Below, one piece after another: positions 18,590 to 46,024 of a stretch of 64,000 bases of DNA. Under the pieces are notes generated by a model that saw only the letters and a list, made by a program, of their open reading frames with translations, did not search any database and was not told the origin of the DNA. This DNA comes from Lewinella sp. LCG006 (GTDB lineage: Bacteria; Bacteroidota; Bacteroidia; Chitinophagales; Saprospiraceae). The first letter of the stretch is position 1. Each line of letters opens with the position of its first letter. Position numbers and translations under genes: made by a program. The stretch is taken from positions 4,372,501 to 4,436,500 of the forward strand of contig NZ_CP160680.1 in assembly GCF_040784935.1 (NCBI RefSeq). The letters are read 5' to 3'.

Positions 18590-18713
18590 CGCGATCCCGA
18601 TTTGTCGGGAGAGCACCACCACGAATCCCGAGTATTCGGTATGAGTACCCTCGCGATCCCGATTTGTGGGGAGAGTACTACCATGAATCCCGAGTATTCG
18701 GGATGAGTACCCC
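18590..18713. repeat. Two-copy 62-bp tandem repeat after the CHAT gene
   Basis: Units starting at 18590 and 18652 share CGCGATCCCGATTTGT, GGGAGAGYACYACCA, GAATCCCGAGTATTCGG and ATGAGTACCC. Each holds small hairpins (CCCGA..TCGGG; CCCGAGTATTCGGG). A related but single arrangement lies at 62169-62320 between two ABC genes. It starts 20 nt after the CHAT stop and runs into a foldback element. Confidence 0.85.
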
Positions 18714-18729: not shown

Positions 18730-18892
18730 TATACCCGGCACTAAGTGGTTTGGGAATATTATCGCAACGTCATTTTTTGCTCTGCCAAGGCGAAAAACGT
18801 AGGCGAAGCCTAAGCTTCGGCGAGGCTTTTTAACGCAGTCAGAGCAAAAAAGGACAAGTGAGAATGTCCCAGACCACTTAGTAACGGGTATA
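18730..18892. mobile_element. 163-bp foldback element, copy A (MITE-like)
   Basis: The unit begins TATACCCGGCACTAAGTGGT and ends with the near-complement ACCACTTAGTAACGGGTATA; inner arms TGGGAATATT and AATGTCCCA also pair. The core holds a second hairpin (TAGGCGAAGCCTA, AAGCTTCGGCGAGGC). A second copy of the same length lies at 43477-43639 with only a handful of substitutions. Both ends carry TATACCCG, so a TA target duplication next to TACCCG ends (as in IS630/mariner-type MITEs) is possible. It ends 27 nt before the next gene and could supply or block its promoter. Confidence 0.85.
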
Positions 18893-41845: not shown

Positions 41846-41997
41846 TGACGGATCAAAAATAACTGATTCCATTCCTGCCTGCGTACCGCAGGTAGGCAGG
41901 TTTGATTCGCTAAAATTTTCTAAGCAAGCAACTAAAAGGAGCTTGCGTGAAAATATTCGCGAATCGTTGGGAAAAATGGAATCAGTTATTTCCGTCA
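41846..41997. repeat. 152-bp foldback repeat
   Basis: Left arm TGACGGATCAAAAATAACTG-ATTCCATT and right arm AATGGAATCAGTTATTTCCGTCA pair along ~22 bp with a small bulge. Inside are the CCTGCCTGCG / GCAGGTAGGCAGG hairpin and the GCTAAAATTTTCT core. A deleted version lies at 20005-20039 and a half copy at 43414-43476. A 60-codon frame across it is an artefact. Confidence 0.8.
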
Positions 41998-42016
41998 AAT
42001 TACTTGGCAAGTGACT

Positions 42017-43476: not shown

Positions 43477-43639
43477 TATACCCGGCACTAAGTGGTTTGG
43501 GAATATTATCGCAACGTCATTTTCTGCTCTGAGAAGGCGAAAAACGTAGGCGAAGCCTAAGCTTCGGCGAGGCTTTTTAACGCAGTCAGAGTAGAAAAGG
43601 ACAAGTGAGAATGTCCCAGACCACTTAGTAACGGGTATA
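43477..43639. mobile_element. 163-bp foldback element, copy B (MITE-like)
   Basis: It has the same length and ends as copy A at 18730-18892 (TATACCCGGCACTAAGTGGT ... cgggtata), differing at only a few positions, for example TTCTGCTCTGAGAAGG here against TTTTGCTCTGCCAAGG in copy A. It is abutted on the left by a half copy of another repeat. The remainder of 43302-43723 is AT-rich leader DNA. Confidence 0.85.
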
Positions 43640-45947: not shown

Positions 45948-46024
45948 TTTTCTTTGAACCACCTAAGGATGTTTTTTTTGAACCATACGAGGGATTATAA
46001 GGGAATATAATTTTGCCCCCATTC

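Follow-up and report, generated by a model that had tools for sequence, protein, structure and literature searches.

Among the closest described systems is RUP (repeat unit of pneumococcus), which has been proposed to be mobilised by IS630-Spn1 (PMC2229807). RUP and the MITE analyzed here, which resides in a stretch of 64,000 nucleotides of the Lewinella sp. LCG006 genome (hereafter the window), are both short and non-coding, target TA and have TIRs matching a resident IS of the IS630 family. RUP differs in being 107 bp long and pneumococcal, and no core common to other TIR families has been described for it (PMC2229807), whereas the window's MITE has an interior that is conserved in other TIR families and in other phyla. 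Correia elements, ERIC, YAPL/RU-2 and other bacterial MITE-like repeats are also foldback sequences, 100-170 bp in length, mostly with TA ends, which form a stable RNA structure if transcribed (PMC2229807, PMC10969869). Correia, ERIC and YAPL/RU-2 repeats differ in both sequence and hosts, and have been described family by family, with no covarying core across different ends (PMC2229807, PMC10969869). QMITEs of Coxiella give rise to small RNAs (PMC5896051, PMC10969869). The likeness lies in a MITE whose transcript folds and yields RNAs (PMC5896051, PMC10969869), as the present element might do if expressed; no sequence relation is suggested.

The window's element, its copies and a partner IS

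The original prediction placed in the window two copies, equal in length and nearly identical, of a foldback element with imperfect TIRs and TA at both edges, and each of these features was found again. The copies (18730-18892 and 43477-43639, 163 bp each) are 97% identical, and are made up by a 159-bp element set between two TA dinucleotides (Table 1). The TIRs, 18 bp long, read TACCCGGCACTAAGTGGT and TACCCGTTACTAAGTGGT in both copies; in the 159-bp element the inverted repeat extends to 26 nt, with 88% complementarity. The element contains no gene and, being short, non-coding and bounded by TIRs, is classified as a MITE. Folded as single-stranded DNA, it reaches -49.7 kcal/mol, whereas shuffles have -18.2 +/- 2.8 (z = -11.2).

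Table 1. Position of the two MITE copies and of their components in the window
Feature	Position	Strand	Evidence
Left TA, target duplication, copy 1	18730..18731	.	TA beside nearly all full-length copies, at unrelated sites
159-bp MITE, copy 1	18732..18890	+ (= strand of conserved core)	genome search, TIR pattern, flanks
Left TIR TACCCGGCACTAAGTGGT, copy 1	18732..18749	+	16/18 match to the IS630 IS end TACCCGTCACTAAGTAGT
Right TIR TACCCGTTACTAAGTGGT, copy 1	18873..18890	-	TIR pattern search
Conserved structured core module, copy 1	18763..18860	+	covariance model R2: 93.3 bits, E 1.3e-22 (by construction, since the R2 source sequences include a core identical to that of copy 1)
Right TA, target duplication, copy 1	18891..18892	.	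flank reading
Left TA, copy 2	43477..43478	.	flank reading
159-bp MITE, copy 2	43479..43637	+	genome search, TIR pattern, flanks
Left TIR, copy 2	43479..43496	+	TIR pattern search
Right TIR, copy 2	43620..43637	-	TIR pattern search
Conserved structured core module, copy 2	43510..43607	+	R2: 89.4 bits, E 1.5e-21
Right TA, copy 2	43638..43639	.	flank reading

The window's own genome (G000; complete, single contig, 7.5 Mb) was searched with copy 1. About 17 full-length or near-full-length copies of the 163-bp unit were detected, nearly all with TA on both sides; six are 100% identical to copy 1 (copy 1 counted), and ~11 more are 80-100% identical to it over most of the length. Such a number of copies, six of them identical, residing at unrelated sites, is not due to chance. 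Flanked copies nearly all read TA-TACCCG...CGGGTA-TA. In one copy (L021) the left edge is altered. Another (L024) has the ends TAAACCCG...CGGGTTTA; because the changes are symmetrical about the element, they are part of its ends, which leaves TA alone as the duplication. Two further copies (L023 and L025) feature an extra internal block, TAGCTACGCTGATCGTCGCAAGCTCCTCTGAG, after the left TIR, and the block being common to both, the sub-variant itself must have spread.

The original prediction would have been refuted by only two copies in the genome, identically placed in distant relatives, and this was not observed: two is the number of copies in the window, not in the genome. As to placement, the gene located right of copy 2 (DoxX-like by look) has orthologues in the congeners G002 (79%), G001 and G003 (67-68%), and the element is missing upstream of all three. 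Placement is hence not identical in relatives, though lack of synteny in the left flank means that no textbook empty site is available. The MITE is found at ~90-92% identity, along with fragments of the IS630 IS at 97-99%, in G002; neither the MITE nor the IS630 IS is present in full in G001 and G003. Plasmid and phage sequences searched with the element gave no match at E 0.01.

An IS having the same ends as the MITE, sought on the strength of the predicted link to an IS630/mariner-type transposase, resides in G000. The TIR pattern search also revealed ends of a second series, in which TACCCGTCCCTAAGTGGT faces TACCCGTCACTAAGTAGT at a distance of 1,108 bp. The corresponding IS (ends TACCCGTCCCTAAGTGGTTTGGG / TACCCGTCACTAAGTAGTTTGGG) is flanked by TA and found in seven intact copies, 0-10 nt different from the first. 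The transposase is 351 aa long, matches DDE_3 (1.8e-29) and HTH_33, and scores above the cut-off with the NCBIfam IS630 model (8.4e-57). In an eighth copy (L066, G000:C1:7127900-7132600) the IS has been split by an insertion, in which two genes are similar to istA/istB of IS21, by protein look. Since G000 carries an IS with matching ends, TA flanks and a transposase of the IS630 family, the 159-bp element is an IS630-type MITE, in line with the predicted mode of mobilisation; as a MITE it is ordinary, a member of a kind already known. The transposase of the 1,108-bp IS most likely moves the MITE in trans, by cut-and-paste into TA, judging from the sequences. We infer movement in trans as for RUP and IS630-Spn1 (PMC2229807). 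An IS630 relative residing in G009 (58% identity) showed no TIR in common with the MITEs found there.

A core common to elements with different ends

Weaker matches in the genome search covered the middle of the element only, and belong to other foldback elements of 158-162 bp, which reside in G000 and have different ends. The window's MITE being family F1, these were sorted as F2 (TAGTCCGTCAAGGCAGG.., the end being read also as TAGTCC..), F3 (GACTTGTTC..) and F4 (GTGCTTTGGG..). Element length is 158-162 bp in all the five TIR families compared. Between these families interiors are 0.60-0.74 identical, against 0.53-0.55 when shuffled, most pairs of ends being near the shuffled level. The core pattern AAAAACGNAGGC-N6-36-GGCGAGGCTTTT matches 23 times in G000 and, among the relatives, 13 times in six genomes, the reversed control 0 times in G000 and relatives alike. 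In two places of G000 (G000:C1:107241-107288 and 3981967-3982014), and as pairs in L343 and L346, palindromes of 48 bp were found; they are two F2-type ends with no interior, micro-derivatives which lost the core.

Across GTDB species genomes the core pattern occurs in at least 120 stretches. Among the matches listed, these come from ~48 assemblies of Bacteroidota, Lachnospiraceae and other Bacillota, with one record each from Chlorobiota, Cyanobacteriota and Rhizobium lemnae. The cyanobacterial record is a MAG, possibly contaminated; R. lemnae, an isolate genome of another phylum, has a single core with short arms (L177), either a recent transfer or a distant relative. Extraction from the pattern stretches and earlier loci yielded 155 distinct elements, which fall into 72 flank clusters. 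Of 395 Bacteroidota genomes surveyed with a covariance model, 10 have the module, and such a patchy occurrence is typical of mobile DNA. The 5.4-Mb genome of a relative (G038) has 204 matches to the GAGCTTGTC-type end, which suggests that a core MITE of ~159 bp resides there in roughly 100 copies, and no autonomous partner was seen.

Core elements of Lachnospiraceae have the ends GGAACTGTAGGAAAATAA, and duplications which are either TAA/TAA or TTA/TTA. Lachnospiraceae A4 carries a 1,304-bp IS (ends GGAACTGTGCAAAAATAA / GGAATTGTGCAAAAATAA) flanked by TTA/TTA, and a second copy of it flanked by TAA/TAA, the ends and the TWA duplication being like those of the core elements. Its transposase belongs to the ISAzo13 family (8.7e-165), and matches the IS630 model at 2e-6, below the cut-off; IS630 and ISAzo13 are distantly related, hence two families of one broad group, and to call the transposases unrelated would overstate the difference. 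MITEs with ISAzo13 ends have the same core and the same element length as the window's MITE, and differ from it in TIR (GGAACTGT..AAATAA vs. TACCCG..) and in target duplication (3-bp TWA vs. TA). The covariance model detected the core in neither of the two ISs examined, the 1,108-bp IS630 and the 1,304-bp ISAzo13. A partner IS was found neither for F2, in G000, G002 or P. xiamenensis, nor for the GAGCTTGTC class, and looking within the GTDB loci for an IS bounded by paired ends yielded neighbouring MITEs only.

REP/BIME sequences (RAYT-type) are palindromes of 20-40 bp with neither TIR nor target duplication, and are moved by a Y1 transposase. A REP-type element had been the alternative in the original prediction, and G[T/C]AG is indeed found just 5' of the core hairpin in nearly every copy, as in GTAG-tagged REPs (PMC3733652), which would suit an imperfect hairpin tagged by GTAG and moved by a REP-associated tyrosine transposase. 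The length of 159 bp, the TA or TWA duplications and the TIRs in common with DDE insertion sequences all speak against it; moreover, the core was always enclosed by an inverted-repeat element where the ends were readable. Membership in REP/BIME was thus rejected, and this origin is regarded as extremely improbable. The 163-bp unit is very probably a 159-bp MITE plus its TA duplication, carrying a conserved interior module. The presence of the module in elements with differing ends, including those of gut Firmicutes, suggests that it is under selection in its own right. From these comparisons the interior ~100 nt is taken to be an older, separately conserved module, not MITE filler.

Structure, covariation and strand bias of the core

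The core forms a hairpin resembling a rod, in which the helices covary and the internal loop (CGYAGGC / GGCGAGG) is constant. In alignment A1, made of 27 sequences from relatives collected by BLAST and by the core pattern, 94% of pair cells are standard and 20 of the 27 pairs show double changes; the covariation score is 0.593, against 0.191 when shuffled and at most 0.162 with partners slid. Alignment A2 (56 diverse sequences) gave 92% paired cells, compensatory double changes at 20 out of 26 pairs, and a score of 0.542 vs. 0.164 shuffled. As the exact pattern by which most sequences were collected fixed the most conserved letters, the invariance of the latter results in part from the selection of sequences, and covariation counts only in helices outside the pattern; lower stem and inner stem were not fixed.

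Further variation was observed in a distant element (L304, in G334), in which the A/T helix is replaced by GCCC/GGGG and the loops are kept. The change bears on a reading of the core as a bidirectional transcription terminator (A5 - GC hairpin - T5), which would halt transcription across the insertion. An A-run and a T-run do lie on either side of a GC-rich hairpin, and three terminator-like sites were found on the minus strand vs. 0.6 expected. The plus strand has no terminator-like match, however, the L304 element has no T-run, and a terminator does not need the conserved mismatched loop. Nor are insertions between convergent genes enriched: among 100 placements outside predicted ORFs (genes being predicted crudely) 34 are divergent, 16 convergent and 50 co-directional, with no clear orientation preference. 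A terminator is a possible but poorly supported reading, and an improbable one.

A GU pair on one strand is an AC mismatch on the other, and a structure formed by one strand should show an excess of GU on that strand. Arms were aligned by Watson-Crick matches alone, and the core sequence, rather than a fold, decided the orientation. GU pairs in the stem arms outnumber AC 189 to 56 over 63 clusters (52 clusters to 4), and the direction is the same in the two phyla, with 136 vs. 35 in Bacteroidota and 43 vs. 19 in Bacillota. Sign-flip tests returned 0 in 20,000 with all clusters and 0.005 with those of Bacillota, values which are optimistic as the clusters are not fully independent. An earlier count, conserved loops included, was 228 vs. 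117. The bias is opposite in the inner stem (GU 6 vs. AC 17), through a frequent A-C at its base. The large excess of GU over AC in the arms indicates selection in favour of one of the strands, which would be expected of an RNA.

The strand bias weighs on two further explanations. A structure of single-stranded DNA, or a cruciform, aiding either transposition (end synapsis) or replication would agree with the strong folding of the element as single-stranded DNA (z = -11.2), with a rod joining both TIRs, and with the constant length. Yet a cruciform on both strands predicts no strand bias, and the arms are biased; in addition, full-length copies of the window's MITE family (F1) lie on both strands of G000 with no evident rule. 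Such a role of the DNA is judged unlikely. Similarly unlikely is that the core is the non-functional filler of an ordinary MITE lineage, spread by descent and horizontal transfer, in which TIRs diverged with transposases and palindrome repair (template switching) kept the arms complementary. The constant 158-162 bp across TIR families fits one descending lineage, the patchy distribution (10/395 Bacteroidota genomes) is on the same side, and compensation can be mimicked by palindrome correction. But palindrome repair would erase constant internal mismatches and cannot yield a strand-specific GU excess, and interiors more alike than ends (0.60-0.74 vs. 0.53-0.55 shuffled) are the opposite of what would be expected from drift. 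The transposase constrains the ends of an ordinary MITE, and the middle drifts. Here the situation is reversed: the ends change, and compensatory substitutions preserve the structure of the middle, which has a preferred strand; this is seen in two phyla and with two families of transposases.

Rfam 15 gave no family at gathering score in the window, and nothing of relevance at E<=1 in seven core loci. Searches of the open-access literature turned up neither a comparable RNA motif nor a core shared among MITEs, which is weak evidence of novelty. Judged from Rfam and open-access literature only, the shared structured module appears new, and there is a real chance that it is a new RNA family.

Proposed role of the core and other repeats in the window

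In the proposed scheme the terminal ~25-30 bp on each side would be what the transposase reads, and the interior ~100 nt, as its sequence suggests, a module working as RNA once the element is transcribed. Chances are about even that the core is an undescribed structured RNA module, a MITE cargo able to switch transposase systems (at least IS630 and ISAzo13) and phyla by changing only the terminal ~25-30 bp, because the RNA serves the element or the host. In read-through transcripts the rod may fold on itself and insulate, process or stabilise them, so that insertions would be tolerable. Such a cis-acting RNA rod is the leading guess, though a tentative one; that the core may work as a trans-acting small RNA is a more doubtful option, and its role may also be a different one altogether. 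If the RNA reading is true, these elements would be vehicles for functional RNA, and why bacterial MITEs persist would become testable through one ~100-nt module.

Repeats of other kinds were also observed in the window. Left of copy 1 (18590-18712), two tandem units of 61 nt, 92% identical and spaced by 62, are rich in CCCGAGTATTCGGG-type palindromes, and form a separate repeat just after the preceding gene. A dispersed repeat of ~50 bp (45960-46011), with no stable fold found, has ~20 or more matches, at 78-94%, in the congener G002. A foldback sequence of ~100 bp (41902-42005; RNA fold z -4.3), possibly another MITE-like element, has four matches at 91-97% in the congener G003.
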